Below are positions 1,772-18,779 of a stretch of 64,000 nt of DNA, piece by piece. The DNA is from Ruegeria sp. ANG-S4 (GTDB lineage: Bacteria; Pseudomonadota; Alphaproteobacteria; Rhodobacterales; Rhodobacteraceae), in the NCBI RefSeq assembly GCF_000814005.1, contig NZ_JWLK01000005.1:372001-436000 (forward strand), read 5' to 3'. Each line of letters starts with the position of its first letter. Position 1 is the stretch's first letter. A program made the position numbers and the translations under genes. A model generated the notes under the pieces. The model worked only from the letters and a program-made list of their open reading frames with translations, did not search any database and had not been told where the DNA came from.

Positions 1772-4486
1772 ATGGAAAAGATAGACGAAAGGCTGCATGC
1801 CCGACTGGATGAGTTTCTCAGGGCTCAGGCCGGGGAAGATGTGGTCGGGGACCCCGGCGCATTTGTTCTGGATGTCAGGATTCGATATGAAGGCGACCCC
1901 GCCGCAATTCTTGCAGCCGGTGTCATGCGCGCAAGCGTCTATCCCCAGACAGTTTATGGCGAGATCAGGGTTTCTGACCTTCCCGCGATAGTGGAAATTC
2001 CAAACGTTATCCGGGTTACGCGACCGCTGGAGATGCGTGACTTTCTGGATGAGAGCGTTCCTGATGCCAAAGTCCCGGCTGTCTGGACCGGCTCGCCGGG
2101 TTTTACCGGGGCAGGCGTTGTTGTCGGCATCATCGATTCCGGGATCGACATCACGCATAACTGCTTTCGCAGACCCAATGACGGTGCTACTCGGATCGAG
2201 GCGATATGGGATCAGACCGTCAATGTCGGACCAAACCCATCAAACTTTTCGTACGGAACCGAATACACCGAAAGCGATATCAACGATGCGTTGAACGCGG
2301 ACGACGACCTGCCATCGAACACTTTCAAACATATCGACAGCAGCGGGCACGGCACACATGTGGCTGGGATCGCGGCCGGAGATGGTTCGCAATCGGGAAA
2401 CTGTCATCTCGAGGATCATTATCGCGGCGTCGCATTTGACGCCGATATCATAGTGGTCAAGCGCGGCAGCCAATCCTCGGCGATCCCGGATGCTGTCCAA
2501 TACGTCTTCGATCTGGCGGGTAGCCGACCGGCCGTCGTCAATATGAGCTTTGGCGGGCAGGGGTCGGGACATGATGGCACTGACGACGACGAAATAGCCA
2601 TCGACGCGCTGCTCAATCCCAATACCGGCATTCCGCAGGGACGGGTTGCCGTTGCATCTGCCGGAAACGAGGCCGACGATGGCCAGCACGCGCATAAAAC
2701 GCTCGCGGCGCAAAGTACCGAAGAGATGCGCTTTACCATCTTGCCCGGTGATCGTTTCACCTTCGATGGGTTTGTCTGGTACGGCACATCGCAGCCGCCG
2801 GGGCAGAGTAATCCGGGCGATGGCTCTCAGGCGGATATCAGTCTGACGCTGCATGCGCCGGACGGCTCAACGGCTTCGGTAACGTCGACGGGCACAGAAA
2901 CCACAACGCTGTCTGGAATGAGAGTTCGCCTCGCCGGGCGCCGGAACGATGGGCGCCCTGACAGACATCGAATTCGCGTCTTCATCGAGCCTGCGATCGG
3001 GAGCACGTTGATGGCCGGTGAATGGCGGGTCGAACTGGAAGAAACCGGCAATGGCACCGCTGGCGGCGAAGCAACCGAGGTCGATTTCTGGATAGACCCC
3101 TGGCATCAATGGCGCGGGCGCGACACCATTTCGGCCAGCGGCAGTCGTACGCTCAGTTTCAAGGTCGGTGAAAACGTGACCGGCACCGGAAACTGTAGGA
3201 TCAGCTATACCGGCAGCGGGCGCCTTTCGGTCAGCCTCACGACGCCGGACCCCGACAGCACACCTACGGTGACCGCAAATGCAGGGGCAGTGACGCATGA
3301 TGCAGGCGACGATCACAAAGTCGAATTCAACTGCCAGACAAACGCGCCCTCGAACGGAAATCACCGCATCGAGTTTTCGATTGCCGCCAAGGGCGCCGGT
3401 AAGACCGTCGACAAAGGGGACTGGACGGTGACTCTGACCGAAACCGCGGGTCATAGCGTCGATTTCACCGCAGTTTTTCCCGAGGACAGGCCGCATACCA
3501 CTGTTGAGGACGATGACGGGAACTCGGAAACCGTCGAAAATACACCCAGATTCATCGAAGCGGATCGTGATCCGGGTCGAACTGTCGGCTCGCCAGGCAC
3601 AGGCAACAGCGTAATAACTGTTGGGGCCTATGAAACCGGCACGGATAACCTCGCAGGCTTCTCATCGCGTGGTCCTACGATTGACGGGCGCCAGAAACCC
3701 GAGCTTTCAGCGCCGGGTGTTGCAATCACCGCGCCCAAAACACGGGTCAAGGACGCCTGCTGCGTCTCGGATTGTTGTGAGACGTTTTACACCAACAAAC
3801 AGGGCACCAGCATGTCAGCGCCCCACGTGGCCGGCGTTGTTGCGTTGATGCTTGAACGAAACGGCGCGCTGACTTTCGAGCAGGCGCGAACGGCTCTCAT
3901 GGACACGGCGGACGCCGTGGCCGGTGCCAATTCCGACCACTGGGGCAACGGCAAACTGAACGCCGAAAACGCCGTCGGTCATGCGCTTGTTTCTGCTGGT
4001 GGCGGGGGCGGAGGCGGAGGTGGCTCCATCGCGCTTTCGGACGAAAACGACCCGGTGTTTTTGCCTGGGCGCGCCACATGGCCGCTTCAGGTGCCGACGA
4101 CCGAACGCATTGATGCGCTGACACGCATTCTGGCCAGCAGCACCAGCGGCTCGGCTGTTGCGATGCTTGTCAGCACCCATTTCGATGAGGTCAAAGCGAT
4201 CATCGACAACTCGAAAAGGGCCGCAGTGGCCTGGCATCGCATGCATGGGCCAGAGCTTATGCGCATTGCATTAAGCTGGCAGGGTAATCGCCGACCGATC
4301 ATTCCCGAGGCGATCAACGGAAACCCGGTCCGAAACGGAATCGAGCGGCTGCTGTCCGCCGTTCGACCGGGTGCCACGCCGGAGCTACGCGCGGCAATGG
4401 TGCGATACGCGCCTGTTCTTCTGGCGCTGCCGGGTTCCACGCAGAGCGAAATCGAAGCCCTGTTGGGGGTCACAGATGGCAGATGA
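1772..4486 (+). CDS. S8 (subtilisin-like) serine peptidase, first gene of the giant-protein operon
   Basis: A 904-residue subtilase. The triad is complete: Asp-122 in GIIDSGID, His-193 in SGHGTHVAG and Ser-680 in GTSMSAPHVAG, with the oxyanion Asn-299 in ASAGNE. A large beta-rich insertion (about 310-600) lies between Asn and Ser, so the catalytic domain is split. A cysteine-dense patch (Cys-663, 664, 668, 669) sits just before the Ser motif. A run of nine glycines (743-751) links a helical C-terminal region of about 150 residues that I do not recognise. The N-terminus has no signal peptide and may be a short propeptide-like domain (1-100). The ATG at 1772 has only a weak ribosome binding site. 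The last 11 bases overlap the start of the next gene. It probably processes or is controlled by a partner from the same operon; that is inference. Confidence 0.9.
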   Translation: MEKIDERLHARLDEFLRAQAGEDVVGDPGAFVLDVRIRYEGDPAAILAAGVMRASVYPQTVYGEIRVSDLPAIVEIPNVIRVTRPLEMRDFLDESVPDAKVPAVWTGSPGFTGAGVVVGIIDSGIDITHNCFRRPNDGATRIEAIWDQTVNVGPNPSNFSYGTEYTESDINDALNADDDLPSNTFKHIDSSGHGTHVAGIAAGDGSQSGNCHLEDHYRGVAFDADIIVVKRGSQSSAIPDAVQYVFDLAGSRPAVVNMSFGGQGSGHDGTDDDEIAIDALLNPNTGIPQGRVAVASAGNEADDGQHAHKTLAAQSTEEMRFTILPGDRFTFDGFVWYGTSQPPGQSNPGDGSQADISLTLHAPDGSTASVTSTGTETTTLSGMRVRLAGRRNDGRPDRHRIRVFIEPAIGSTLMAGEWRVELEETGNGTAGGEATEVDFWIDPWHQWRGRDTISASGSRTLSFKVGENVTGTGNCRISYTGSGRLSVSLTTPDPDSTPTVTANAGAVTHDAGDDHKVEFNCQTNAPSNGNHRIEFSIAAKGAGKTVDKGDWTVTLTETAGHSVDFTAVFPEDRPHTTVEDDDGNSETVENTPRFIEADRDPGRTVGSPGTGNSVITVGAYETGTDNLAGFSSRGPTIDGRQKPELSAPGVAITAPKTRVKDACCVSDCCETFYTNKQGTSMSAPHVAGVVALMLERNGALTFEQARTALMDTADAVAGANSDHWGNGKLNAENAVGHALVSAGGGGGGGGGSIALSDENDPVFLPGRATWPLQVPTTERIDALTRILASSTSGSAVAMLVSTHFDEVKAIIDNSKRAAVAWHRMHGPELMRIALSWQGNRRPIIPEAINGNPVRNGIERLLSAVRPGATPELRAAMVRYAPVLLALPGSTQSEIEALLGVTDGR

Positions 4487-7400
4487 AGGCACACTCGAAG
4501 CGCTGGGTCGCAACCTTGCATTTGCATTCGAACCGTTGGTGGATCGTCTGTCAGACGGCAATCTTGAGGGTTTCTTTTCAGAGCTGGGCCTTGCACCACC
4601 CGCAGCGGTCGCGAACGCGCAGCCGGTCGGGAACGCAGCCGCAACAATCGCGGGTGCGATATCCGCGATGCCGTCCGCGATCGCGGCCTTAGAAGCGGCG
4701 GTTCAGTCCGAGGATGCCGGTCAGATCGCCAGTGCCGGTGCGGATCTGTTGCGCGCGGTTCTGGATGCGGTCCGAGGGATAACGGATCTGGGCAATGCCG
4801 TGGATCAGGCGGCCGGTGGGTTGAGCGCAGCCGAGCGGGCCGCAGTTCAGGCGTTCGCGGCGGAATTGCCGGGGCGGATCTTTGACTATGTGATCATCGA
4901 GTTTATTCGCAGGGCGCATTCCGGCAGTCTTGATGTCTTGCGATTGATCGGCCTCGTCGATGATCAGGTTACATTGCCAGCCGACAGCGCACCGCTTGCA
5001 AGACCAGCGCGTCAACGACGCCTGTCGCCCGAGCGTTTGCTGACGATGCTGACAGACCCCGAGCAATACTTGCGCGACCTCTTCCAATGGGGTGAGGCGG
5101 GCTTTGACGGCTCCAGGATTTTTCCGCGTATTCAGACACTGCTGGAAAACTATGACACGCCAACAGTTCTGTTGACCGAGCCCGGTTCGCCGCCGGTGTT
5201 AGAAGCGTTTATTGCCCGGTTACAGGCAGATAACGGTAATCCGCCGGGCCTGAATATTCGGCTGCGCGTGCCTGCCATTGCAGACTTTGAGCGCCAGTAC
5301 CGTATTTCGTCGACCATCTCGTTTCTGATGTCCACCAGCGCGCGGTTCGACGCGGGAATGGGCATAACGCTTCGACCACCGCTCGACGTGTCCTTGGAAC
5401 CGATATCCGGGGACGCGACGTTGGATTTGCTTGCCGGGCTTGAGATTGGCCGTGAAGACGGCGCGATGGAAATCATCGGTCAAACGGGCGGCAGTGGCCT
5501 GTTTCTGGAAAGCTTCTCCGGCAGTTTCGGCGTCAGCGGATCGTGGAGTGTGGGCTCAGGTCCGCAGATCGAACCGGCAATCCGGGCGGCGCTGAATGGT
5601 GGGCGGCTCAAGATCGACTTTTCCGAGGCGGATGGGTTCTTGAAAACCATCGCGGGCGGTGTCCAAATCGACAGCGAATTCAATTCGGGCCTGTCCTGGA
5701 CACCATCGAATGGGGTCAGTTTCGAAGGATCGTCAGCCATCGAAGTGGCGATCCCGCTGCATCAGACCTTGGGGCCCTTGAACCTGCAGACGCTTTACCT
5801 GATCGGCGGCATTGGCAGCGGTGGGTCTGTCACGCTTGAAATGTCCAGCGGCTTCTCTGTCGAACTGGGGCCGCTTCAAGCGGTCGTGGATCGGTTCGGG
5901 GCACAGGTTGAATTGACCTTCCCGTCAGATGGCGAAGGTAACCTTGGGAAGGCCGATCTGGGCTTTAAACTGAAGCTCCCGACGGCGGTTGGGATGTCGA
6001 TTGATGCAGGTGCCGTTCGGGGTGGCGGATTTCTGAGCATCGATCAGGACCGTGGTGAATACGCCGGTATTCTTGAGCTGAGCATTCTCGAACTTGTCAG
6101 TGTCACGGCCATCGCGGTCATATCGACAAAACTGCCCGATGGCGAAGATGGGTTTGCCTTCGTGGCCATCATAAGTGTCGAGTTCAATCCCGGCATCCAG
6201 CTTGGGTTCGGCTTCACTCTGGTCGGCGTCGGCGGGATTGTCGGTCTGAACCGCGAAGCGGATATGGAGGCGATTGCCCAAGGGGCCACGTCCGGTTCGG
6301 TCGACTCGGTGTTGTTCCCCAAGGATGTGATTGCCAATGCGCCAAAAATAATCAATGACATCAGAACCTTCTTCCCACCGGATCAGGGCACGTTCCTGAT
6401 TGGGCCGATGATGAAATTCGGATGGGGTACGCCAACGTTGATATCCCTGTCCGTCGGGGTGATCATCGAAATCCCGGGCGCGATCGGGATTGTGGGCAAA
6501 CTGACCATCGCCATCCCGGACGAACGCGTGCCTCTGATTATTATCAACGTGGCCGTACTGGGCGAGATTGATTTCGACAAAAAGCATCTGTGGTTTCTGG
6601 CGGTTCTTTATGAAAGCCGCGTCATCTTCATGCCCTTGCAAGGGGGAATGGGCGTGTATGCGTCCTGGGGCAGCAATTCGCAGTTCATCATAAGCGTCGG
6701 CGGGTTCCATCCGCGATACGATGTTCCCGTTTTGCCATTCGGAGACATCCCGCGGCTGGCGATCAATATCCTCGATACGCCCGTGGCAAAGGTGCGGGTG
6801 CTTTGCTATTTCGCGGTGACATCCAACACCGTTCAATTCGGTGCGCGGGCCGAGCTGTATTTCGGCATCTCAATTGCCAAGATCGAGGGACACATCGCGT
6901 TTGACGCGCTGTTCCAGTTTTCGCCCTTCTATTTTGTCATCACGATCTCTGCATCGCTGAGCGTAAAGCTGTTCGGGGCAGGGCTGTTTTCGGTCCGCTT
7001 CCGGGGCGAACTGGAAGGACCGACGCCTTGGCATATCGAAGGCACCGGTTCGATTTCAGTGCTGTTCTGGGATGTCGATGTCGATTTCTCGCACACCTGG
7101 GGAGAGGACGAGGATACCCGACTCCCGCCGATCTCGGTCATGCCGATGTTGGTCGAGGAGTTTTCGAAGGATGAGAACTGGACCGCAGAACTGGCCAATG
7201 CAAATCAATTGCTGGTCACGCTGCGTCCAGTTGATGCCACGACCGAACTTGTTCTGCACCCAATCGGATCGCTCCGGATCACGCAACGCGCCGTTCCGCT
7301 GGAGCTTACGCTGGACAAGATCGGCAGTCAGCGCCCCGATGACGCAAACCGGTTCAGCGTGGATGCGGTCTCGGCCGGTGTTGAAAAACGCGCGACGGTC

Positions 7401-7886
7401 AAAGAGCAGTTCGCCATCGGGCAGTTCCAGGATCTGGGTGACGGCGATCGGCTGAGCGCGTCCGATTACGAGCAGGAAGAGGCAGGGCTGGACTTGTCCG
7501 TTACGGGCAATCAGACCGCCACGAGCTATGCGACCAAGCGCGTCGTGCGCTATGAAACCATCATCATCGACAGCGCGTTGCGGCAAGTGTTCCTGTTCTT
7601 CGAGGCGTTTACCAACCTGTTTTTGCACCTTCTTTTGGGAAATTCAGCAGCGCGCAACGTATTGTCGGCGCAGACGCAGGCGCACAAACACCTCTATGAC
7701 GAGAAGATCAAGGTTGACCCGAACGCATTTGTTGTCGTCAACCTAGCGGACAACACCGCTGTGGCGGATGCCCCGGTCAGCTTTGCCTCCAGAGCGCAGG
7801 CCCGCGAGTACATGGCGGAACAAGGTCCGGCTTTCGCGAAACAAGCCCATATCGTGCGTCCGCACGAAATGCGCGAAGCAGCATGA
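4476..7886 (+). CDS. DUF6603-type large beta-rich protein
   Basis: A 1136-residue protein. The open frame extends upstream to 4371, but the ATG at 4476, preceded by a GGGGGT element, overlaps the S8 gene end by 11 bases and begins the natural sequence. Residues 1-170 are alanine-rich and helical; the rest is dominated by alternating hydrophobic strands. A GFTLVGVGGIVGLNR segment near residue 583 is the hallmark I recall for DUF6603, a domain of unknown function in large bacterial proteins. The C-terminal 60 residues form a small separate alpha/beta-looking module containing NAFVVVNLADNT and PAFAKQAHIV. No signal peptide is seen. The repeating strands suggest an elongated beta structure, possibly a shell, tube or channel wall; this is inference only. 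Confidence 0.75.
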   Translation: MADEGTLEALGRNLAFAFEPLVDRLSDGNLEGFFSELGLAPPAAVANAQPVGNAAATIAGAISAMPSAIAALEAAVQSEDAGQIASAGADLLRAVLDAVRGITDLGNAVDQAAGGLSAAERAAVQAFAAELPGRIFDYVIIEFIRRAHSGSLDVLRLIGLVDDQVTLPADSAPLARPARQRRLSPERLLTMLTDPEQYLRDLFQWGEAGFDGSRIFPRIQTLLENYDTPTVLLTEPGSPPVLEAFIARLQADNGNPPGLNIRLRVPAIADFERQYRISSTISFLMSTSARFDAGMGITLRPPLDVSLEPISGDATLDLLAGLEIGREDGAMEIIGQTGGSGLFLESFSGSFGVSGSWSVGSGPQIEPAIRAALNGGRLKIDFSEADGFLKTIAGGVQIDSEFNSGLSWTPSNGVSFEGSSAIEVAIPLHQTLGPLNLQTLYLIGGIGSGGSVTLEMSSGFSVELGPLQAVVDRFGAQVELTFPSDGEGNLGKADLGFKLKLPTAVGMSIDAGAVRGGGFLSIDQDRGEYAGILELSILELVSVTAIAVISTKLPDGEDGFAFVAIISVEFNPGIQLGFGFTLVGVGGIVGLNREADMEAIAQGATSGSVDSVLFPKDVIANAPKIINDIRTFFPPDQGTFLIGPMMKFGWGTPTLISLSVGVIIEIPGAIGIVGKLTIAIPDERVPLIIINVAVLGEIDFDKKHLWFLAVLYESRVIFMPLQGGMGVYASWGSNSQFIISVGGFHPRYDVPVLPFGDIPRLAINILDTPVAKVRVLCYFAVTSNTVQFGARAELYFGISIAKIEGHIAFDALFQFSPFYFVITISASLSVKLFGAGLFSVRFRGELEGPTPWHIEGTGSISVLFWDVDVDFSHTWGEDEDTRLPPISVMPMLVEEFSKDENWTAELANANQLLVTLRPVDATTELVLHPIGSLRITQRAVPLELTLDKIGSQRPDDANRFSVDAVSAGVEKRATVKEQFAIGQFQDLGDGDRLSASDYEQEEAGLDLSVTGNQTATSYATKRVVRYETIIIDSALRQVFLFFEAFTNLFLHLLLGNSAARNVLSAQTQAHKHLYDEKIKVDPNAFVVVNLADNTAVADAPVSFASRAQAREYMAEQGPAFAKQAHIVRPHEMREAA

Positions 7887-7899
7887 GGAAGGCCCGCAG

Positions 7900-10800
7900 A
7901 TGAGCGATACGATCGGCACCTATTCCTTCCTTCCCTGGCTGCGGTTGGGCATCGCGAACTCAATCACCGCTGCGGATGGGGATGCTTCGGTCACGCTGCG
8001 TGCAACGATCCCGGTCGACCTTGAAATTACCGGCAAACCGGTCGAAGGCGAAACGGATTTGACGGCCACGGTCAGTCGCAATGTCCAGATGTACGGACCC
8101 GGAGATATTGTCGGTATAGACGCGCGGTCCATCGTCAAAAATGAACCTAAAGACTGGATCACCAACTTCGAGCCGAACTACCTGCCGTATATCGAGTTTT
8201 ACGAAGAGGATTTTCCCTGGCGCTATACGCCTGCGGCACCGGACACAAACCTGCACAGGTTGCGCCCATGGATGGCTTTGATCGTTCTGAAAGAGGATGA
8301 ATTCGGCGATCTTCCACCTATCGGTTCCCGCCCCTTGCCCGCGATCGAAGTGACGGGCGATCCGGCGCTTGCCTTTCCGCCTTCTGATCAGCTTTGGGCG
8401 TGGGCCCATGTTCACGTGAACCGCGACCTGATCCGGCAGGATGGCGTTGTATCCGCCGACACGCCGGCAGCTGTTGATGCTGCAAGATCGCGGTTTGAAA
8501 ACGTCCTGTCCGCCAATCCGGACAACGCTTATTCTCGCATCGTGGCACCCCGTCGGCTTGAGGCAGATACCGGGTATCACGCCTTTCTGATCCCGTCTTT
8601 TGAAACAGGGCGTTTGTCCGGGCTTGGTCTGACCGACGATCTGTCCAATGCTGCGCTTTTTGCGACGCTATCTGCGTGGGAAGATTATGCCGGGCGTCCG
8701 GCGGGGAACCAACATCCCTATTACCATCGCTGGTATTTCCGGACCGGCGCTGTTGGGGATTTCGAGTATCTGGTGCGCCTGCTGGAGCCCCGGCCGCCAG
8801 ACCCGCGCCTTGGCCGCAGGGACATGGATACCCAAAATCCGGGATCAAACCTGCCCGCTATTGCGATACCCGAACTCGATGGTGTTCTGCGATTGGGCGG
8901 CGCGTTGAAAGTTCCAAAGGAACGACTGAACGATGATCAGGAACAGGAAGCCGAGGATTATGAGTTCTGGGCTGACGGCAGGTTCCCCGAAGACTTTACC
9001 GACGCAATGGCGCGTCGGATCAATCTGGCAGATGATTATGTGCGCGAAGGTGACCCGGACCCGATCATCACGATGCCGCTCTATGGTCGTTGGCCATCGC
9101 TGCATGACCGCCTGAGGTTCGAACCCGACGACTCTCCGGTGCCGCAAGGCGACAATTGGGTTCATGAACTGAACCTCGACCCTCAGAACAGGGTTCCCGC
9201 CGGTTTCGGCGGGGATGTCGTGCGCAAAAACCAGGAAGACTATATGGACGCTGCCTGGGAACAGGTCGGTGACATAATCGAGGCCAACAAGCGTGTGCGA
9301 TTGGCAGCGCTGGCACAAGCCAGTTCCGCCGTTTGGCACAAAACGCATCTGAGCGGCACAAATACACTGTCCTCTGAACGGTTCCTGAGCATCGCGGCCC
9401 CGGTTCAGCGAAGAGTCGTGTCGGCGGGATTGAACCTGCAGCACCAGATCGCGACAAGCGCAGTGCCGCGCGCGGTGATGACGGCGCCGTTTCGCAGAAT
9501 GCTGCGGCCCCGCGATCACGTCGCCGTGCAGGCCGGTTTCGGTGATCCCAAGGGCCCGGACCAATTGATCGACCGCATTAACTCGGGCGAGGTCAGCCCG
9601 GCTCCGCCGCGCCAGACGCCTGAGGATCTGCCGACAAAAGAAGAAGCGGCCGAGGGCGTGGAAACGCCGGGCATCCCGAACTGGCTTGCCGATCTGGTGA
9701 ACCGGCATCCTTGGCTGCGTTTGGTTCTGACCCTTCTGTTCGCTTTGCTTGGCCTGATGCTTTTGGTGATCATTCCAGCGCTGGGGATCGTTGTCCTCGT
9801 CTTCGCGGCTGCCGTTTTCGAATTGCTTAGAAGGGCGGAAGCCGCCGGTGAACTGATTGATGCAGCTGGTGAAGAAGGCAACAGGCCCGAAGTCATTGAC
9901 GCCCTGCCCAATTTCCCGGATTTTGAGATCAGGTTCCCGGACGACGGCAAACCTGACCCGGTTCCAGCGCCCGGCGCTGACAGTGCCGAAGCGACACGTT
10001 TCAAGCTGGCACTGAAAGACACTTATACGTTGACGAGCTTCAGCGCGGACCTGGGCACGCTGCCGCCCCGGCCACCTATCAGTATATCGGGAATTGCGAC
10101 GGCCACGTTTGACGCGATCAACCCAGAAATCACCATTCCGGCATTCACTTTCGGGGGGATCACGATCCCTGGCTTCCTGGCCGACATTCAGTTTGAACTG
10201 TTTCGCGAGGCGATGGCTTATCCGGTTTTGGACATCCCGATGTACGAACCTCTGGTCGGATTGTCGGATGAGCATTTCCTGCCCAACATCGACAAGATAC
10301 CGCCCAATACGATCACGCTGCTGGAGACAAACCAGAAGTTCATCGAAGCGTATATGGTGGGCGCGAACCACGAAATGGCACGAGAGCTACTGTGGCGCGA
10401 GTACCCGACGGATCAAAGGGGAACGCCGTTCCGGCAATTCTGGGATCCCACTGGTGCTGTCGTGCGTGATGAGGGTCTGATAGGATCTTTGTCGGCCTCG
10501 AACACTCTGACAACCGGGACGCCCGAAGACCGTCGCGAGAAACTGCGCGACATCCCACCGCTGCATTTGTGGTCGAGGTTCTCGAACTTGGGTGAACATG
10601 ACCACCGCGAAGAAAACCCCGGCGAATCCGAGGAAGAGGCAGTTTTGGTGATCAAGGGCGAGCTGCTCAAACGTTATCCCAACACTGTCATTTACGCGCA
10701 GCGCGCCCGGTGGCAACTGACGGACGGGGAAATTGATGCAACACTGCCGCGCCTGCTTGAGGACGAAGGGTCAGAAGCCGAAATTCTGCGTACACCCCTG

Positions 10801-11253
10801 TACGAGGCGCGGGTCGATCCGGATGTGACCTTTATCGGGTTTGATCTTACAACAGCCGAGGCACAAGGCGGCACCGGTGAGGATGGCGATGATGATCCGG
10901 GTTGGTTCTTTGTAATCAAGGAACGCCCGGGGGAACCCCGTTTCGGCTTGGATATCGAGCGCGAAGGGTCGTTGAACCTGTGGAACGATCTGGCATGGCC
11001 GGACGTTCATGACCCAGTCACCGACAGCGGGTTCCTGCAGATCACCGGCGCGTCGCCCACGCTGGTTTTGCCTGCGGAATTGCCCGAAGAACTTGCCGGC
11101 AGCGAGGACGAGACCACGCCTGCCGAAATTCAACATGCCGAGGATGTTGGCCTTCGGTGGCATCCGAACACCAACGCGGCGGAACTTGCCTACATCCTGT
11201 ATCAGGTGCCAGTACTGGTCGCCGTTCACGCGCGCGAAATGCTACCGAACTGA
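7900..11253 (+). CDS. Giant conserved protein of unknown function with an internal membrane segment (1117 aa)
   Basis: I do not know a function for this protein. The start ATG at 7900 has a GAGGAAGG ribosome binding site and lies 13 bases after the DUF6603 gene; the frame further upstream overlaps that gene and is rejected. The N-terminus reads TYSFLPWLRLGIAN and there is a conserved-looking block LRPWMALIVLKEDEF near residue 125. A strongly hydrophobic stretch at about 605-650 could form two membrane helices, followed by an acidic, proline-rich linker. A second block, NHEMARELLWREYP near residue 824, resembles a motif I recall from unnamed proteins of other bacteria. No enzyme motif or signal peptide is visible. 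The central hydrophobic region suggests that the product, and perhaps the whole complex, is anchored in the inner membrane. Confidence 0.7.
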   Translation: MSDTIGTYSFLPWLRLGIANSITAADGDASVTLRATIPVDLEITGKPVEGETDLTATVSRNVQMYGPGDIVGIDARSIVKNEPKDWITNFEPNYLPYIEFYEEDFPWRYTPAAPDTNLHRLRPWMALIVLKEDEFGDLPPIGSRPLPAIEVTGDPALAFPPSDQLWAWAHVHVNRDLIRQDGVVSADTPAAVDAARSRFENVLSANPDNAYSRIVAPRRLEADTGYHAFLIPSFETGRLSGLGLTDDLSNAALFATLSAWEDYAGRPAGNQHPYYHRWYFRTGAVGDFEYLVRLLEPRPPDPRLGRRDMDTQNPGSNLPAIAIPELDGVLRLGGALKVPKERLNDDQEQEAEDYEFWADGRFPEDFTDAMARRINLADDYVREGDPDPIITMPLYGRWPSLHDRLRFEPDDSPVPQGDNWVHELNLDPQNRVPAGFGGDVVRKNQEDYMDAAWEQVGDIIEANKRVRLAALAQASSAVWHKTHLSGTNTLSSERFLSIAAPVQRRVVSAGLNLQHQIATSAVPRAVMTAPFRRMLRPRDHVAVQAGFGDPKGPDQLIDRINSGEVSPAPPRQTPEDLPTKEEAAEGVETPGIPNWLADLVNRHPWLRLVLTLLFALLGLMLLVIIPALGIVVLVFAAAVFELLRRAEAAGELIDAAGEEGNRPEVIDALPNFPDFEIRFPDDGKPDPVPAPGADSAEATRFKLALKDTYTLTSFSADLGTLPPRPPISISGIATATFDAINPEITIPAFTFGGITIPGFLADIQFELFREAMAYPVLDIPMYEPLVGLSDEHFLPNIDKIPPNTITLLETNQKFIEAYMVGANHEMARELLWREYPTDQRGTPFRQFWDPTGAVVRDEGLIGSLSASNTLTTGTPEDRREKLRDIPPLHLWSRFSNLGEHDHREENPGESEEEAVLVIKGELLKRYPNTVIYAQRARWQLTDGEIDATLPRLLEDEGSEAEILRTPLYEARVDPDVTFIGFDLTTAEAQGGTGEDGDDDPGWFFVIKERPGEPRFGLDIEREGSLNLWNDLAWPDVHDPVTDSGFLQITGASPTLVLPAELPEELAGSEDETTPAEIQHAEDVGLRWHPNTNAAELAYILYQVPVLVAVHAREMLPN

Positions 11254-11263
11254 GGAGGGACAG

Positions 11264-14200
11264 ATGGCTGAATTTGACGATATCCGCCTTGACCTGTCCG
11301 AGGCCCGCGCCAGCACGCATTTGGCAGGCCGCGAGTTGTTCCGCATCAAGCAACGCCGCAAGCGGTTGGAAGAAAACCGCAGCCGCCAAGCACGGGTCGC
11401 GCGCGAAGGTCAGACAAGCCCTGAACTGGCTGAATTGGATGCTCAGATTTCGGACCTTGAAGGCAGAATTGAAGCAGGTCGTGCGAGGTTGGATCAGGCC
11501 AAACTGGCTGAGGCGGACATCTATGGCCGGTTCGAGATATTTACCGACCCGCGCGAACGGATCGAGTTGCTGAACGACAGAACGCCGATCCTGTTGATGC
11601 CATTAAGGATTGAGACCCGGTTCAAGCGTGCCGACGAGCACGACGGGGACAGCGATGAAATGTGGGTGCGGGTCTATCCCGATGACATCGCGGTTGACGT
11701 CTTCGAGGACACGCTATCCGTCACCGAAGCACAGCAAGCCCGATCCTTTTGGGCCGATCTGTGGTCGGCAGGGGGCGCAGAGGCGGCCGAACGGGCGGCA
11801 TGGTCGACGCTGTTGGGCGGGCAGGGGTCCGGACGCTCTCATTTCGTGACCGAGACGTATCGCCCACTGAACGAGGCGGAAAAACCCGTCCCGCCAGAGG
11901 ACACCCCGTGGATCATTCTGAGCGTTGTTTCACAGCCGGCTCTGATCGAACCGGAAAGAACGGCTGTGGGCGATTTTTGGTCGGCGATCTGGTTGGCTGG
12001 CGACGATGTCGCGGCTCAGACCGCAGCCTATGATGCATTGCGCCTGACGTTGGGTGACGATCGCGCCGAAGAGATTCAGCGCGACTATCGGCCACGCAAC
12101 CTGACGACTTTGCCCCCCGATGGTACTGAACGGGGTGACACGACGGTCATCGTCTCGTTCCTCGACTTTCCGACCGATGACGAAATTGATCTGCGTCTGG
12201 AAGGTTGGACCCAGGCACCGCAGGTTCATTGCATGCCTGAACGGCTGGTCCTTCTGGGTTACAACAACGGCCAGTTGGACCTAGAGCGCATCGGCAACCG
12301 CATTCCGACACCGTTGGCCACCGGGCCCGATCCGTCGGCGGAAGAGGACGTGCAACTGAAGGCCGACGAAGTTGGCAACATACGTCCCGATCCAGAGTTT
12401 GAGTGGGTCACGGATTTCGGAAAGGCGATCGAAGTCGGAATGGGATGGCGCGTGCCACTGGACCCGGTGGCCTTTCGTACCGGGTTCGATCGTCTGCTGG
12501 TGATTGGCGTTCGCATGCGCTCGGATCAGGCGGACGGTCAGGAGTGCCTTGAGACACTGTTGGACCACCATCACCGATCCAAAGGCGGGCTTTCCATTCT
12601 GCCGCAGGGGCGTCCGACGAACAATGTCGAGACCGAAGGCGCAGCCTATAGTTGGCGCGAAGATCCAAATGTAAGCTTTGATCACTATTTCGGCGATGCG
12701 CCAGACGACCCAACCAGCTGGACTCAGAAGACGGACGGGCGCTGGTTGGCCGAAATGCTTGGTCTCTCGCCCGCGGCGCTTCGGGCTGTTCCTTTCTATG
12801 GCCATACGGACATCTGCGATGCAATGGCGATGAACACCGCGTTGTGGCCTGCCACACTGGGGCACTTCATGGAAAGCGCGATGCACCCGGTGTTTGACGA
12901 AGACACGGTCGAGGACACGCGCGAGTTTTTTGTCCGCCATGTGCGGGCCCGTGGGCAATTGCCCGCCATTCGCGTCGGGCAGCAACCTTACGGTATTCTG
13001 CCCGCAACCGTCCGGTCGCGTATCGGCTGGCTCAGAGGTGCGCGGGATCCAATTGGGTCGGCACCAACCGCAGCGCCTTTGCAATCAAACTTCCTGCTGC
13101 GTCTTTATGGATTGCTTCGAAGGGTCGAAACGGACCTTGAGCCCCAGCTGGAAAAGGTTTCGTTTGTTGGCAAAGGCGGCGTCGACCGGCATCAGGCGTT
13201 GCTGGATGTGCTGGGTCTGCATGCAAACTCGGTCGAGTTCCAGCAGCGCTATGGCGAAACCTTTGCGCAATTCTACAATCGCATGTCCCTGATGGGACCA
13301 ACCGGGGCATTGTTGGCGTTGGCTGTTTTCAACGGCTTCCGCGCGTCGGGCATCGGGTTGCTCGCGTCGCTGGGGTTCACGTTTGATGAACAGGAAGACA
13401 TCCCCGATTTGCTCGAGAAGATTTTCTTCGACCGTGTGAATCAGCTTAAGGGCCCGTTGATCGACGATCAGGACCTATCAGAAACCGACCCAATCAGAGC
13501 GTACACGGAAGGCGGTGAAAACTATCTGGATTGGTTGCGCATGGCAGCCGCGTCCTCGCATGACACACTGCGCAAACAGGAAGGGTTTGCCGATGGCCCG
13601 CCAAATGCGCTGCTCTACCTGATGCTGCGCCACGCGCTTGACCTAAGTTATGTTGAGATCAGTGCCCGCTTGTTCCGAAACGCCGGGATCATTTCGGCAC
13701 AGGATCACATGGCGTTTCGGCGCGAGCCCGCATTTGTCGGCATCCAGGACGAACTATTAGCTCAGCCTCAGTCTGCTGGCGGCAGCCGCTGGCAGTACCT
13801 GTACCGCAACGACATTTCCATAACCGGAAACGCGCAGCGCACAGTGGGCACGTTCATTCCGACGGTTCTGAATACGATGGTGGCGACGCAATATCTTGGA
13901 CGCCAGCTTGACGCCATCGATCACCTTGCCTCTCGCCCAACGGCCGCGCTGGAGCGTGCCTTTGTTGAGCATCTTGATCTGTGCACGTATCGGCTGGACG
14001 CGTGGTATGGGGGTCTGCTGAGCAAACAGCTTGAAGACTTGCGCTATGGTCAGTTCGTAGAAAACGAAGCCACGCCAGGGCTTTACCTGGGGGCTTATGG
14101 CTATCTGGAAGAGGTCAAGCCCGAGTTCAAGTCGTTGACCCCGGTGGATCTGCCCGATGAGCTGCAAGAGATATTCGGCCCCGGTCGCGACTTGACCACC

Positions 14201-16909
14201 GACAGTACGAACCAGGGCTACATTCACGCACCTTCGCTGAACCATGCGGTGACCGCTGCCGTGCTCAGAAACGGCTACATTTCGAATGCGACGCCAGAGA
14301 ACCCCGACAGCCTCAAGGTCAACCTGACGTCCGAGCGTGTGCGACTTGCGCTGTCAGTTATTGATGGAATGAAATCGAACCAATCTCTGTGTGCGTTGCT
14401 GGGTTATCATTTTGAACGTGGTTTGCACGACCGCCATGATGTTGAGGTCGATGAATACATCCTCGACCTGCGCAAAGTGTTTCCGTTGTCGGGTGAGCGC
14501 CTGAAACCCACGCGCACGCCACGCCTTGACGGGATCGGGCGAAGAATTCGCATGAACCGGGTTGAGGCCAAAAACGTGATCGATGGACTGGCGCTGGTCG
14601 AGCAAATGGCAAGCCCCACGACGAATGAATACCCGTTCGGCAAGTCTGAGGACCTGCCCGAAGTGCCAGACATCCCGCAAACTGCCGTGAATGCAATCAA
14701 TGAAGAAGCGCGCCGGATTGCAGACATTGCGGACGCGGTGGCCGACCTTGCGATGGCGGAAAGCGTACATCAGGTCGTTCAGGGCAACTATGACCGCGCG
14801 GGTGCTGTGCTGGATACCTACTCCAAAGGAAAATTCCCCGACACACCGGATGTCATAAAAACCCCCAGGTCAGGCGTTGTTTTGACCCATCGAGTTGCGC
14901 TGCATCTCAGAACGGGGCTGGATCCCAATGATGCTGCGCTGACATCGCCTCGCGCGCAGGCTGAACCGGGTTTGAATGACTGGTTGTCCGGACAGTTGCC
15001 CGATCCGGCCCGGATCGCGGCAGAAGTGACATTGACGGATCCGTTGGATCAGAGTGAATCGGTCGTGAGCGTCACGGCGGGTGACCTTGGCCTTTTACCG
15101 CTTGATCTTCTTTACCTGCTTGACCCTACAGCCGAACGCGCCGCGCGCACGCTGGATGATTTGATAGAAACCTTCGTCATCACGACCCAGGCACCGCGCC
15201 CGGATGTGGCGATCAGTATTTCTTACCGCAGGCGGATCGGAACGATCCCGGATCATGTGCCCTTCTTTGAACTTGCCGCGCTGACCCGTGCGCAACGTAA
15301 ACTACTCTTGCGCACCCGGCCTCTGCGTGTGAGCGACATGAGCATGGTTGCCGACACTGTACGCGATGCCGATCTCGCGCCGATTCTGAACCGGGACCGC
15401 ATTGCGCGTCCACGCGCGGTTCTGAACGGGGAAATATTGTCGCTGGTTGCGGTTCGCGACCCCCTGCAGGCGCGCGTTGATGCAGAGGAACGCGATCAGA
15501 TCATTTCGGAAATTGATCAGACAATTGCGGATTTCGCTGCGCGAATGGTCCCTCTGACGGTCTTTGACAATCAGGGGACCGGAACCGCAGCGGTGTTTGC
15601 AGACCGACGCTCTATCGCGACCGAGGTTAAGGAAAAACTAACCACGACGATCGAACGGCTGGATACGGCGCTTGCCAGTTTCGACCAACTCATTGCCGAT
15701 TTTGACGGCGATCCGGGCGCCGATCCCGCAGACCGTTTAACGCTGTTACACAACGCGCGACGTTTGATTATGACGGATCGCTCGGCAATACCTCCCGCCG
15801 ACCCCGAAGATTTCAGCAATGATCTGGCCGGGCCTGCACGCACAGCATTTGTCGCGCATCGCGATGCATTGGAAACGCTGCACAACACCGCGCCGAACCT
15901 ATCCGCTCTGTTTGATGGGGCGGTAGTGCTGGCAACGGCGAATACGGCGTTTGATCTGGAACCTGTGGACCTGACCGATGCCGGGAACAGGATCGTTGCA
16001 CTGGCCGAAGATATGGCTGTCCGCGCGACGGCGCTGATTGACGACCTGACCCGCAGGCGGGATGCGGTTGACGCACAGCTTGCGGCACATGACGCCGCAG
16101 CCACTGGCGATCAGCGGGTCGAGGCGTTGGATAAGGCCGCAAAGATATTGTTTGGTGACGAGTTCAAGATGGTTCCGGAGTTTGCGCTGCCGCAGTCTCA
16201 GGGTGATGAATGGGCGAACGCGTGGGGCTTGGGGCCACAAGCCGACACATCCATTCTGGATCACCAGCGCACAACGTTGGGCAATCCGTTTCCCGTTGAT
16301 GACTGGTTCCTGGGCGTCGCGCGTGTCCATGAGCGCCTGCATGATCTCGAGGCAGCAGGTCAACTTGCCGAGGCTTTGGCTGGTGCCGAAATCGAATTGC
16401 AACCTGTACAGTTCCCGCATCGTCCCGACGTACCCTGGCTGGCCGTGGCGTATCCAAGGGAAAACCCTGATGGGTCCGAATTCATAATTGATGAAGACAA
16501 GCTGCTTTACACGGGGCACTTCCGCGATCCGTTCAATGCGTCAGCACCGCAGGCCGGTCTTCTGATCGAAGAATGGACCGAGACAATTCCCAGCCCGAGC
16601 GAGGACACTGGCCTGGCCTTCCATTATGACCGCCCCAACAGCGAGCCGCCGCAGACCATGCTGCTTGCGTTGACACCGCAATACACCGGTGAATGGCGAT
16701 GGCAGGATCTGGTAGATACGGTGCATGAAACGATGGATCTGGCCAAGAAGCGGGCAATTGAACCAGACCATATCGACACGACGGCATATGCCCGCTTCCT
16801 GCCTGCATTGCTTTCAACGGTTACGCTTTATCCGATTACCGCGCAGTTGAACTTTTCGTTCAACAACAATCTGGCATCCACGTTGAATACCGGAGGATCA
16901 GATGAATGA
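11264..16909 (+). CDS. Giant conserved protein of unknown function with N-terminal coiled coil (1881 aa)
   Basis: At 1881 residues this is the largest gene of the window, and I do not recognise its function. The ATG at 11264 follows the previous stop by 10 bases with a GAGGAGGGA ribosome binding site. Residues 20-85 are charged heptad-like helix (coiled coil). Motifs that look family-wide are WVRVYPDD (134-141) and RVGQQPYGILP (ending near 579). A second heptad-like helical region lies near residues 1400-1650, rich in Asp, Ala and Arg. There is no signal peptide and no clear membrane segment. The last 8 bases overlap the next gene, and that gene's ribosome binding site (GGAGG at 16892-16896) lies inside this one, indicating translational coupling. 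Size and coiled coils suit a scaffold or fibre; this is inference. Confidence 0.7.
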   Translation: MAEFDDIRLDLSEARASTHLAGRELFRIKQRRKRLEENRSRQARVAREGQTSPELAELDAQISDLEGRIEAGRARLDQAKLAEADIYGRFEIFTDPRERIELLNDRTPILLMPLRIETRFKRADEHDGDSDEMWVRVYPDDIAVDVFEDTLSVTEAQQARSFWADLWSAGGAEAAERAAWSTLLGGQGSGRSHFVTETYRPLNEAEKPVPPEDTPWIILSVVSQPALIEPERTAVGDFWSAIWLAGDDVAAQTAAYDALRLTLGDDRAEEIQRDYRPRNLTTLPPDGTERGDTTVIVSFLDFPTDDEIDLRLEGWTQAPQVHCMPERLVLLGYNNGQLDLERIGNRIPTPLATGPDPSAEEDVQLKADEVGNIRPDPEFEWVTDFGKAIEVGMGWRVPLDPVAFRTGFDRLLVIGVRMRSDQADGQECLETLLDHHHRSKGGLSILPQGRPTNNVETEGAAYSWREDPNVSFDHYFGDAPDDPTSWTQKTDGRWLAEMLGLSPAALRAVPFYGHTDICDAMAMNTALWPATLGHFMESAMHPVFDEDTVEDTREFFVRHVRARGQLPAIRVGQQPYGILPATVRSRIGWLRGARDPIGSAPTAAPLQSNFLLRLYGLLRRVETDLEPQLEKVSFVGKGGVDRHQALLDVLGLHANSVEFQQRYGETFAQFYNRMSLMGPTGALLALAVFNGFRASGIGLLASLGFTFDEQEDIPDLLEKIFFDRVNQLKGPLIDDQDLSETDPIRAYTEGGENYLDWLRMAAASSHDTLRKQEGFADGPPNALLYLMLRHALDLSYVEISARLFRNAGIISAQDHMAFRREPAFVGIQDELLAQPQSAGGSRWQYLYRNDISITGNAQRTVGTFIPTVLNTMVATQYLGRQLDAIDHLASRPTAALERAFVEHLDLCTYRLDAWYGGLLSKQLEDLRYGQFVENEATPGLYLGAYGYLEEVKPEFKSLTPVDLPDELQEIFGPGRDLTTDSTNQGYIHAPSLNHAVTAAVLRNGYISNATPENPDSLKVNLTSERVRLALSVIDGMKSNQSLCALLGYHFERGLHDRHDVEVDEYILDLRKVFPLSGERLKPTRTPRLDGIGRRIRMNRVEAKNVIDGLALVEQMASPTTNEYPFGKSEDLPEVPDIPQTAVNAINEEARRIADIADAVADLAMAESVHQVVQGNYDRAGAVLDTYSKGKFPDTPDVIKTPRSGVVLTHRVALHLRTGLDPNDAALTSPRAQAEPGLNDWLSGQLPDPARIAAEVTLTDPLDQSESVVSVTAGDLGLLPLDLLYLLDPTAERAARTLDDLIETFVITTQAPRPDVAISISYRRRIGTIPDHVPFFELAALTRAQRKLLLRTRPLRVSDMSMVADTVRDADLAPILNRDRIARPRAVLNGEILSLVAVRDPLQARVDAEERDQIISEIDQTIADFAARMVPLTVFDNQGTGTAAVFADRRSIATEVKEKLTTTIERLDTALASFDQLIADFDGDPGADPADRLTLLHNARRLIMTDRSAIPPADPEDFSNDLAGPARTAFVAHRDALETLHNTAPNLSALFDGAVVLATANTAFDLEPVDLTDAGNRIVALAEDMAVRATALIDDLTRRRDAVDAQLAAHDAAATGDQRVEALDKAAKILFGDEFKMVPEFALPQSQGDEWANAWGLGPQADTSILDHQRTTLGNPFPVDDWFLGVARVHERLHDLEAAGQLAEALAGAEIELQPVQFPHRPDVPWLAVAYPRENPDGSEFIIDEDKLLYTGHFRDPFNASAPQAGLLIEEWTETIPSPSEDTGLAFHYDRPNSEPPQTMLLALTPQYTGEWRWQDLVDTVHETMDLAKKRAIEPDHIDTTAYARFLPALLSTVTLYPITAQLNFSFNNNLASTLNTGGSDE

Positions 16910-18779
16910 GTTTGTTGCCGTTTCTGACCTGAGGGCCGTCTTTGACAAAAAGCGCGTATTGCCCACAATCGTGCTTTGGAACCGTCTGGAAGGACGCCCG
17001 CGCACCCACGATTTTGATCGTGCGCTGAAGGCGGAAATACGCGATCCGCTTTGGATGCTGTGCAAACAGTGGCAGATGGGAGAGTTCAGGGGCGATGATG
17101 CCGGGTCTCCGGTGACGGCAAAGATACATGCCGAAACAACTGAACTTACCAAATACAAGGCCGCAAATGATCCGGTCGAAGCGTTCCCCGATGATGTACC
17201 GCTTGAGGCGCGGGTCGAACGTCGCCCGGTGCGCTTTTCACGCGCGGGCGGGCCGATCGCGTTCGACTTGCGCGTGGCACTGGGTAAGCGATGGCTTCGA
17301 TTGATTGCCGGTATCGAGGCCGGATTGGAGCAGCAGTTTCGCGACGCGTTGAGCATCGCTGAGCCGGACCCGGACTCGCCGGACGACGCCGCAATCGCAG
17401 CGCATCTGGCGGCATGGCAGCATGTCGCGGCTCTTGCCGGTCGCGCGCTCGACGGTGGCGCGCTGATCGAACATCTGGCCGTTCCCGGAAACAGGGCCGT
17501 CGATTTGGTGACCTTGGCGGATGCCACAAACGAAGCCGCCGTGGATGCCGCAGAGGCCGCTTTTCTGGCGGATTACGCGCGCAATTTCTACCAACCACCC
17601 CCGGATGCGGGCACTGCATGGTTGCCAGAAAGAATGGAATACGCTTTTGAGGTTTCCGCGCCAAAGGGTGGGACCGAAAAACACCTGGTGGCCGACGGGT
17701 ATCATCACGGGCACCTGGATTGGTACAATCTCGACATTGACCCGCGCGGGCAGGGGATCGGTGATGTTCCTGATGCGCCACTGCCAGAAGATGTCGAACG
17801 CACGCATACTTTCGGTTTTCTGCCCGGTCCGATTCAGTTCGATGGCATGCCGCATACCCGTTGGTGGCGGTTCGAAGATGGCCGCACCAATTTTGGCGAC
17901 ATTGACCCGGACACAACGGATATCAACAAACTGCTGCTCATGGAGTTTGGCTTGGTTTACGCCAATGATTGGTTCTTGTTGCCGATCACCCTTCCGGCAG
18001 GCACGATATCCAACATCGCGGGTGTCAGCGTGACAAACGTGTTCGGTGAGCGCACGTGGATTGAGGCAGCCGGTCGCGGAAACGACGAAGACTGGCAACG
18101 CTGGGCGATGTATGGTCTGGCGACCGCAGGCGACGCGAATGTCCCTGCCGATCAAAGCTTGCTGCTGTTGCCGTCCGTGTCGAAAATTCAGGAAGGTCCG
18201 GCGCGCGAAGCGGTGCAGCTTACGCGGGACGAGATGGCAAACATGGTGTGGGGTATCGAAACCAAGGTCCCGATGGCCGATGGCTCGGCCAGACGGGGTA
18301 TCATCGCCGCCCGCGAGACCCGACGTTATCACAAGCGCATTATTGAGGCCGCAATCCCTGACGAGCCTCCGGCCCTGCCTTTGGAAAACGAGGCCAACAT
18401 CCGCTACCGCGCGATGACGCGGGTGCCGGAAAACTGGATCCCATTTGTTCCCGTTCACATCGAGGGTTCGACCCGTGAAGTCCAACTGCGCCGCTCTGCG
18501 CTTTTGCGCGTCATCGAGGACGATCCAAACCCTGCTTTGCCAGTCAGGCCCCGCACAGATCTTTTGCGGCACAACCTCGATCTGCCCGTTCCAGAAGGCT
18601 ATGATGTTTTCGAAGAAGAGGTTCCGCGTGCAGGTGCCAAGGTGACCGAGAGCTTTCAGCGGTGTCGCTGGTATGGCGGCGAGGTTTTCCTTTGGATTGG
18701 TCGACGCAAAACGACGGGACGCGGCGAACGTTCAAGCAACCTTGCCTTTGACAGAATACGCCGCAAATCCCGCAGATAG
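16902..18779 (+). CDS. Conserved protein of unknown function, last gene of the giant-protein operon (625 aa)
   Basis: A 625-residue protein whose ATG overlaps the preceding stop by 8 bases, which ties its translation to the 1881-residue partner. The N-terminal block DPLWMLCKQWQMGEFRGDD (48-66) is the most distinctive part; I recall similar blocks in unnamed proteins of actinobacteria and other phyla but know no assigned function. The middle is rich in Trp and Asp and looks mixed alpha/beta. There is no signal peptide, membrane segment or catalytic motif. The C-terminus is basic (RIRRKSRR). Being the shortest and last of the five, it could be a cap or adaptor subunit; nothing in the sequence proves this. 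Confidence 0.7.
   Translation: MNEFVAVSDLRAVFDKKRVLPTIVLWNRLEGRPRTHDFDRALKAEIRDPLWMLCKQWQMGEFRGDDAGSPVTAKIHAETTELTKYKAANDPVEAFPDDVPLEARVERRPVRFSRAGGPIAFDLRVALGKRWLRLIAGIEAGLEQQFRDALSIAEPDPDSPDDAAIAAHLAAWQHVAALAGRALDGGALIEHLAVPGNRAVDLVTLADATNEAAVDAAEAAFLADYARNFYQPPPDAGTAWLPERMEYAFEVSAPKGGTEKHLVADGYHHGHLDWYNLDIDPRGQGIGDVPDAPLPEDVERTHTFGFLPGPIQFDGMPHTRWWRFEDGRTNFGDIDPDTTDINKLLLMEFGLVYANDWFLLPITLPAGTISNIAGVSVTNVFGERTWIEAAGRGNDEDWQRWAMYGLATAGDANVPADQSLLLLPSVSKIQEGPAREAVQLTRDEMANMVWGIETKVPMADGSARRGIIAARETRRYHKRIIEAAIPDEPPALPLENEANIRYRAMTRVPENWIPFVPVHIEGSTREVQLRRSALLRVIEDDPNPALPVRPRTDLLRHNLDLPVPEGYDVFEEEVPRAGAKVTESFQRCRWYGGEVFLWIGRRKTTGRGERSSNLAFDRIRRKSRR

Follow-up and report, generated by a model that had tools for sequence, protein, structure and literature searches.

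The five collinear genes at positions 1772 to 18779 of a 64,000-nucleotide stretch of Ruegeria sp. ANG-S4 (contig NZ_JWLK01000005.1, positions 372,001 to 436,000; hereafter the window) raise the question of what a subtilase and four further large proteins, encoded in one operon, do together. Here we report a comparative analysis in which the last four genes appear as a core cassette shared by bacteria and archaea, and in which the gene in front of them is exchanged for unrelated enzymes along with the N-terminal part of the next protein.

All five genes lie on the plus strand. Gene 1 (P0001, P1; 1772..4486; 904 amino acids, aa) encodes the S8 subtilase, gene 2 (P0002, P2; 4476..7886; 1136 aa) a DUF6603 protein, gene 3 (P0003, P3; 7900..11253; 1117 aa) a core protein without known family, gene 4 (P0004, P4; 11264..16909; 1881 aa) the largest core protein, and gene 5 (P0005, P5; 16902..18779; 625 aa) a further core protein. 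An initial annotation of the window could name only the S8 and DUF6603 families, and both were recovered over their Pfam cut-offs (S8, 168.6 bits against a cut-off of 21.8, E 2.5e-49; PF20248, 413.3 bits against 27, residues 428-988 of P2). For genes 3-5 no Pfam or NCBIfam model scores above its cut-off, the best E-value across Pfam, PHROGs, NCBIfam, and PADLOC being 0.096.

A scan of 84,980 species genomes gave 262 relatives of P4, and the best 80 of them supplied the genome loci. These best 80 of 262 belong to 10 named phyla plus one unranked group: Bacteroidota (32), Chloroflexota (12), Actinomycetota (12), Pseudomonadota (9), Myxococcota (6), Verrucomicrobiota (3), Cyanobacteriota (2), Acidobacteriota, Ignavibacteriota, and Bacillota (1 each), and Aminicenantes (1, unranked). 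Twelve plasmid records found by tblastn, from haloarchaea, Streptomyces, Gemmatirosa, and Rhizobium, add the haloarchaea and Gemmatimonadota to this range. In 76 of the 92 loci (numbered with the prefix L) with core matches, the set of P2, P3, P4, and P5 is complete and runs in this order on a single strand; 13 of the other 16 end at a contig edge, and the remaining three are L008, L009, where P2 is located behind P5, and L018, where P5 is missing at the end of the record. This ordered co-occurrence marks the four core genes as one inherited unit. The expectation of a conserved, old, and family-wide cassette holds for genes 2-5, whose order is the same across phyla and in archaea; neither a mostly separate occurrence of the families nor a clear match to a described system was found for P3-P5, and DUF6603 also occurs elsewhere. 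Family alignments were built for P4 (A1 and A7; motifs WVRVYPDD and QPYGILP) and P5 (A2 and A6; motif RQWQxGEF). Two loci show disrupted cores: L008 looks degraded, with a short P4, P5 in three pieces, and no P2 or P3, and on a Rhizobium plasmid (L012, 12320-20208) P3 and P4 are each split into two genes.

Within its own class the cassette is rare, P4 being present in three of 289 genomes, the window's own included, and P5 in one of 15 congeners. A viral origin was considered and rejected. A pattern-limited scan of viral contigs gave 15 pattern matches and zero relatives, and the sole phage-labelled record that holds the cassette (MT835531.1, L010, 'Bacteriophage sp.' from human faeces) looks like a fragment of a bacterial chromosome, since its other scanned genes (STAND/BTAD, AlkZ-like, zinc dehydrogenase, periplasmic-binding, and acetyltransferase) are typical of bacterial chromosomes.

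In 61 loci P2 has a gene of the same strand immediately in front of it, at a spacing of -78 to +64 nucleotides in 58 of them; we refer to this position as slot A. The families recognized there are S1 (trypsin-like), S8, M64, and M14 peptidases, PhoD and PLD hydrolases, and galactose-oxidase-like proteins, with 43 of the 61 genes assigned by cluster membership or by their own Pfam hit. Representatives of M64, PhoD, and PLD exceed the Pfam cut-offs; L071 falls below and aligns to the M64 group. Proteins were placed in S1 by their blast linkage, by a single Pfam match exceeding the cut-off (L030), and by the GDSG motif, retained in 19 of 19 proteins. All three S8 motifs are retained in five of five proteins, HExxH in eight of 10 M64 proteins, and FDDHE in nine of 11 PhoD proteins. 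Seven loci (L033, L044, L059, L060, L071, L079, L099) received manual labels on the basis of their profile or Pfam hits, and four (L057, L077, L084, L098) carry no label; L016, with two WHR proteins (defined below) bearing GDSG, was omitted from the tree and pair-identity analyses and relabelled S1 for the nearest-neighbour test. The M64-type slot-A proteins of L065 and L070 have no HExxH and are perhaps inactive or misassigned. A cluster of ~330-aa proteins without Pfam match (c5) precedes P2 in L023, L043, L046, L054, and, weakly, L075; the P2 N-termini of these loci are alike, and c5 may be another docking partner.

The subtilase of the window is itself genuine. Its catalytic region (residues ~109-723) holds DSG122, HGTH193, and GTSM678, which we take to be the Asp, His, and Ser motifs of the S8 catalytic triad. 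What did not stand is the idea that it is built in: it is interchangeable, one of several enzymes, and a fixed protease role was rejected, as the P1 profile matched just five open reading frames in the 92 loci and other enzymes occupy slot A. L020, the nearest row to the window with a 58% identical P3, carries an M64-type protein. By parsimony on a P3 tree of 80 rows, the enzyme class changes 25 times; this tree was a quick one with 23 of 77 inner branches poorly supported, and its well-supported branches alone force at least seven changes for S1, nine for M64, five for PhoD, and five for S8. Slot A is, on these family assignments, a site where unrelated enzymes replace one another.

The exchange extends into gene 2. 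We divided P2 into an exchangeable part (residues 1 to ~490; 4476..5945, plus strand), a putative cradle for the slot-A enzyme that tracks enzyme class, and a constant part (residues ~491-1136; 5946..7883, plus strand) comprising an amphipathic antiparallel beta meander to ~910 and a C-terminal tail. Among all pairs of the 53 loci that had a label and four core proteins in the set size range, the identity of P2 residues 1-390 for same versus different enzymes was 0.58 against 0.27 at a core identity of 0.62-1 (12 and 4 pairs), 0.39 against 0.22 at 0.5-0.62 (23 and 102 pairs), 0.31 against 0.23 at 0.4-0.5, and 0.27 against 0.20 at 0.32-0.4. After regression on core identity (47 loci with 6 singletons dropped; 193 same and 853 different pairs), the residual contrast was 0.088 for P2 1-390, a value reached by none of 2000 label shuffles, and 0.015 for P2 430-900 (8 of 2000). 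For the P2 tail, P3, P4, and P5 it was -0.003, -0.002, 0.000, and 0.002 (1765, 1768, 1004, and 392 of 2000, respectively); the shuffles ignore kinship, so P3-P5 are the better control. In sliding windows the contrast fell from 0.079 at residues 441-500 to 0.023 at 481-540 and to about zero beyond.

A nearest-neighbour test, run on 52 named rows of 67 loci with 50 or 51 eligible, gave the same picture. By P2 1-480, 48 of 50 loci have a nearest neighbour of their own enzyme class, with 8.8 of 50 expected by chance, against 31, 31, 33, and 32 of 50 by P3, P4, P5, and the rest of P2. For docking type the count is 51 of 51 against 33, 32, 34, and 33 of 51, the docking types having been merged after the BLAST pair comparison had been seen. 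Taken together, these comparisons show P2 residues 1 to ~490 changing with the enzyme class, and the rest of P2, P3, P4, and P5 not doing so.

A congener outside the set in which the pattern was found (G696) offers a check on it. Its cassette lies elsewhere in the genome and has in front of it two proteases with GDSG and WHR, and no subtilase. Compared with the window, its P2, P3, P4, and P5 are 53%, 61%, 55%, and 64% identical; the constant part of P2 is 75% identical and residues 1-390 are 31% identical, closer to the Chloroflexota loci L031 and L030 (0.37) than to the window (0.31). This comparison indicates that enzyme and socket were replaced within one genus and the core was kept. We regard the description of the enzyme slot as a plug-in as well supported at the level of sequence.

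A candidate plug was found at the C-terminus of gene 1. The profiles of the S8 and S1 groups align over their last ~125 residues (hhalign E 6.5e-19, Prob 99.1), and the shared region, named WHR from its motif VAWHRxxGP, has invariant E, W, R, G, and P in alignment A10; in gene 1 it spans residues 776-901 (4097..4474, plus strand). It is carried by the S8 proteins of the window and L052 and by the S1 group, and is lacking in the S8 proteins of L021, L022, L029, and L079. Profile hits in L021, L022, and L029 were rejected as artefacts of catalytic ends in the training set, A10 being empty in the L021 and L022 genomes. Of 30 cassette genomes, 16 contain WHR, with 25 matches in total; arithmetic on contig ranges puts every one of them in the cassette or immediately next to it. 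In the class, where at most 12 candidates were scored per genome, WHR was found in one of 289 genomes, the window's own, and in 11 further genomes it occurs only in G696, at its cassette. By BLAST score the P2 N-terminus of the window is nearest to that of L052 (S8 with WHR), then to those of L073, L041, and L031 (S1 with WHR), and not to those next to WHR-less S8 proteins. The alignments thus define a cassette-specific C-terminal domain common to proteases of two folds, whose P2 N-termini appear related as well. Stand-alone WHR proteins of 138-140 aa occur in L087 (1511-1927), L090 (1313-1735), and L095 (1486-1902), directly before an S1 protease that also bears WHR, and are perhaps free adaptors or socket competitors. 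No docking domain common to all slot-A classes was found; the profile matches join only S1 with S8, M64 with L071, and c14 with L018.

What the core itself might be was approached through structure models. The AlphaFold2 model of P2 (59 sequences; predicted local distance difference test score, pLDDT, 82.3) is helical to ~225, followed by ~45 mostly long antiparallel strands. These are amphipathic, with a face hydrophobicity difference of 3.3 against 1.6 when shuffled (38 strands, whole protein). The best structural alignment of P2, to the middle region of apolipoprotein B (ApoB100) among the large lipid transfer proteins, has a Z of 14.0 and a root-mean-square deviation (rmsd) of 12.6 over 302 aligned residues and is tied with porins within 1 Z unit (Z 11-13, rmsd 10-12). 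Nearly all matches, to porins, LptD, ushers, and ApoB100, have a template modelling (TM) score of ~0.1 or an rmsd above 10, so they reflect a common long meander and not an identified fold; the best match in BFVD had an E of 1.3e-5 and a TM of 0.14. The P3 model (68 sequences, alignment A11) reached a pLDDT of 87.5 and a predicted TM score (pTM) of 0.73. Foldseek gave no match to it in the Protein Data Bank (PDB) at E 0.001 (best E 1.0), and its best VIA Z was 6.6 over 77 residues, which is no proof of a new fold because a single domain can be missed within 1117 residues. There are no sequence relatives of P3 or P5 in the PDB, and for P2 and P4 the search brought up nothing but designed bundles and coiled coils that align to helical stretches, weakly for P4, which has coiled-coil-like stretches at residues ~1-90 and in its later third. 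Profile searches of genes 3-5 and structure searches with the P3 model, as the initial annotation had suggested, brought up no described system.

P3 has a strong hydrophobic segment near residue 616 (~610-656, window 9727-9867) that is found in 32 of 87 orthologues and may be a membrane anchor in one subset of the family or else a pair of core helices. This segment, the amphipathic strands, and the alignment to ApoB100, together with PLD- and PhoD-type enzymes in slot A, could be read as a lipid-handling particle, the P2 sheet wrapping or bridging lipid and the enzyme working on the bound substrate. We hold this to be highly improbable: a TM of ~0.1 and an rmsd above 10 indicate only the common meander, and a lipid role leaves the predominance of proteases in slot A unexplained.

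DUF6603 is not bound to the cassette. Nine of the 398 genomes of a phylum sample are positive for the domain, and P4 and P5 accompany it only in the window's; they were not found in the 20 kb fetched around DUF6603 in the other eight. In these eight it lies in ~3,250-aa proteins (L116-L120) or 1,513-1,560-aa proteins (L121-L123), with other large uncharacterized genes alongside. In L116 the DUF6603 protein is followed by a protein with a weak P3 profile match (E 2.4e-5, Prob 75.6), and in L121 it is preceded by a metallo-beta-lactamase-type gene just under cut-off (21.6 against 22.7 bits); L116-L123 may form a second class of this type of system. The occurrence of DUF6603 without P4 and P5, and the lack of conservation of gene 1, are what might be expected if the operon were a chance array of large genes with no common system. 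We give this explanation practically no credence, as it is already refuted for P2-P5 by the 76 of 92 ordered loci across bacteria and archaea, and the five genes interrupt a pair that otherwise adjoins. The flanking genes, both named from sequence, are a site-2-protease-like gene on the left (181..1251, minus strand) and a single-stranded-DNA-binding protein gene (ssb) on the right (19032..19511, minus strand). By coordinates they adjoin in 14 of 15 congeners, with ~20 bases between them, so the five genes represent one insertion at an otherwise fixed place. The flanking genes are 17.8 kb apart in the window and 6.4 kb apart, with other genes between, in the fifteenth congener; that different insertion (L140, G690:C1:772000-783000) makes the site possibly a hotspot.

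The architecture of the operon is as first described: the sizes were reproduced from the coordinates, as were the junctions of -11, +13, +10, and -8, and the GC content of 58.7% is close to the 57.1% of the whole window. Ribosome-binding sites, read by eye in the 30 bases upstream of each start, are clear for gene 3 (gaggaag), gene 4 (gaggagg), and gene 5 (ggagg), and none was seen at gene 1; the statement that all genes but the first have one was slightly generous, gene 2 having just a weak ggggg. No hydrophobic N-terminal segment was found in the five proteins, which agrees with the reported lack of signal peptides (judged here from hydrophobicity alone), and the segment of P3 near 616 had gone unmentioned. 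Pfam annotation of 53 neighbours of the cassettes revealed no common theme among the 25 of 69 families listed. Three distant genomes have error-prone DNA polymerase genes near the cassette (L012, L024, L088; a Y-family polymerase in L012 and L088), which may hint at SOS control or be due to chance.

How, then, might core and enzyme work together? The reading we favour, and to which we assign an even chance, is that the cassette encodes an effector-carrying scaffold with an interchangeable enzyme, most likely for conflict. The constant part of P2, P3, P4, and P5 would form one large scaffold made in the cytoplasm, which would carry and control the one enzyme encoded directly in front. The P2 N-terminus would be the socket that holds the enzyme, in the window through WHR, and the amphipathic meander of P2, with the hydrophobic segment of P3 in one clade, could bring the particle into contact with a membrane or lipid. 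The enzyme would stay harmless up to the triggering or delivery of the particle, and would on release cut proteins, phosphodiesters, or phospholipids of the target, or oxidise its sugars. The setting would be conflict with other organisms, by a machine that is exported or released and is unrelated to phage tails. The earlier view of one large assembly with a protease survives in part: the core is a conserved unit and probably one assembly, and the protease is exchangeable. The plug-in is the well-supported part; the role is what we infer, by analogy, since conflict systems typically exchange their payload while the carrier stays constant (PMC7159879); the analogy draws on type VI secretion adaptors and polymorphic toxins too.

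Several observations weigh against this scaffold reading. No ATPase or secretion family was recognized in the core, nor was an immunity gene recognized near the cassette, where many neighbours have no family, and the pTM of the P2 model is 0.49. As for the plug-in, 18 of the 61 slot-A genes were left without a group, and Pfam scans of slot-A genes (10 of 46 in one, nine of 10 in another) left many without a family. The S1 genes of L059 and L060 stand behind P5, outside the slot. The effect of the enzyme on P2 1-390 is absent at a core identity of 0.25-0.32 (0.17 against 0.17), and the raw identity of the window N-terminus does not separate loci with WHR enzymes (0.27-0.32) from those with WHR-less S8 proteins (0.23-0.28). 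The late merging of docking types counts here too, as do same-class pairs with unrelated P2 N-termini (L071/L074, 0.28; L081/L089, 0.27), which imply that the enzyme classes hold subtypes.

A constant core with swapped effectors and a patchy distribution would also suit an intracellular defence system, in which the giant core senses infection and frees an interchangeable effector that harms the infected cell or the invader. The absence of a hydrophobic N-terminus from the five window proteins points the same way, as does the number of loci in Chloroflexota, Actinomycetota, Cyanobacteriota, Myxococcota, and Bacteroidota; known conflict systems with trypsin- or caspase-type effectors are enriched in multicellular prokaryotes, according to PMC7159879. 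On balance we consider a defence role unlikely: profile searches of the core brought up no family of NTPases, nucleases, or nucleotide signalling, the PADLOC matches are limited to the protease, and the neighbours show no common theme among the 25 of 69 families listed. Galactose-oxidase-like and M64 families are mostly secreted types, which also speaks against it. Extracellular-type additions, an LTD domain in P5 of L011 and FG-GAP in P3 of L013, lend slight weight to an extracellular role rather than to defence inside the cell.

The same LTD and FG-GAP additions, further additions of decapeptide-repeat type, and the annotation of the L013 slot-A protein as peptidoglycan-binding fit a surface or extracellular enzyme carrier that serves nutrition or matrix turnover and not conflict, and the slot-A enzymes do act on proteins, phosphoesters, phospholipids, and sugars. 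This explanation strikes us as improbable, because a common core with class-specific sockets is elaborate for secreting a hydrolase, no signal peptide was seen in the window, and a hydrophobic first segment is present in just two of 61 slot-A proteins (L048 and L050).

Constant machines with exchangeable payloads, such as phage-tail-like injectors and polymorphic toxins, are important for ecology and as protein-delivery tools. The candidate core belongs to no known machine of this kind and spans more than 10 phyla and two domains of life. The 125-residue docking domain and the ~490-residue socket make a testable plug, and the scaffold reading is a first functional hypothesis for DUF6603 and three nameless families; in open-licence PubMed Central texts we found no paper on DUF6603, PF20248, or this set of enzymes. 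In its most specific form the proposal is that of an undescribed effector-carrying machine of bacteria and archaea, not derived from phage tails, in which exchange acts on a single module made up of the enzyme gene and the opening ~490 codons of the DUF6603 gene, S1 and S8 folds have converged on the same docking domain, and a giant amphipathic beta sheet replaces contractile sheath and ATPase; we place our confidence in this form slightly below even.

In type VI secretion and extracellular contractile injection systems, the effector travels with its own loading partner and the machine is constant. The cassette is like them in joining a payload and its partner part to a constant machine, and differs from them and from phage tails in having no sheath, tube, spike, or baseplate family by Pfam, PHROGs, and NCBIfam profiles of the five window proteins and in a P3 model that Foldseek matches to nothing in the PDB at E 0.001. 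The profile searches of the window proteins agree with the earlier statement that no known secretion or phage-tail family is present, and export by a recognizable secretion machine was rejected on the same searches. The AAA+ ATPase of contractile injection systems was not found in the five proteins; for the neighbours of relatives, the listing covered 25 of 69 families. At the level of sequence profiles, genes 2-5 have no Pfam or NCBIfam match to the TcA, TcB, or TcC domains of Tc (ABC) toxins. P2 departs from outer-membrane beta-barrel proteins in having no hydrophobic N-terminus and in being present also in haloarchaea and Actinomycetota, groups that lack a Gram-negative outer membrane.

In polymorphic toxins, the toxin is the C-terminal part of its carrier, comes with an immunity gene, and is replaced by recombination. 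The cassette shares with them payload replacement beside a constant carrier, but its enzyme has a gene of its own, and the first 490 residues of the neighbouring gene product are exchanged along with it. Gene 1 has as its closest NCBIfam models CspBA and CspC, the clostridial Csp germination proteases, from which it differs by scoring 135 bits against a cut-off of 1250 and by its own WHR domain; it alone matches PADLOC, through subtilase and IetS models, with no further defence component among the window proteins. P2 is a member of DUF6603 (PF20248), whose other members stand in clusters without recognizable P4 and P5. The MoxR-vWA ternary and related nucleoside triphosphate-dependent conflict systems, as described by Kaur et al. 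2020 (PMC7159879), are frequent in multicellular prokaryotes and combine a constant multi-gene core, built on AAA+ and vWA or GTPase components, with exchangeable effectors that include trypsin-type and once subtilisin-type peptidases. The cassette resembles them in its constant core and its exchangeable effectors including peptidases, and differs in that its giant core is unrelated and the five window proteins include no MoxR AAA+, vWA, or GTPase. The carrier proteins thus match no system compared here, and the principle on which they would work, a constant carrier with a swapped payload that brings its own adaptor, is a known one.

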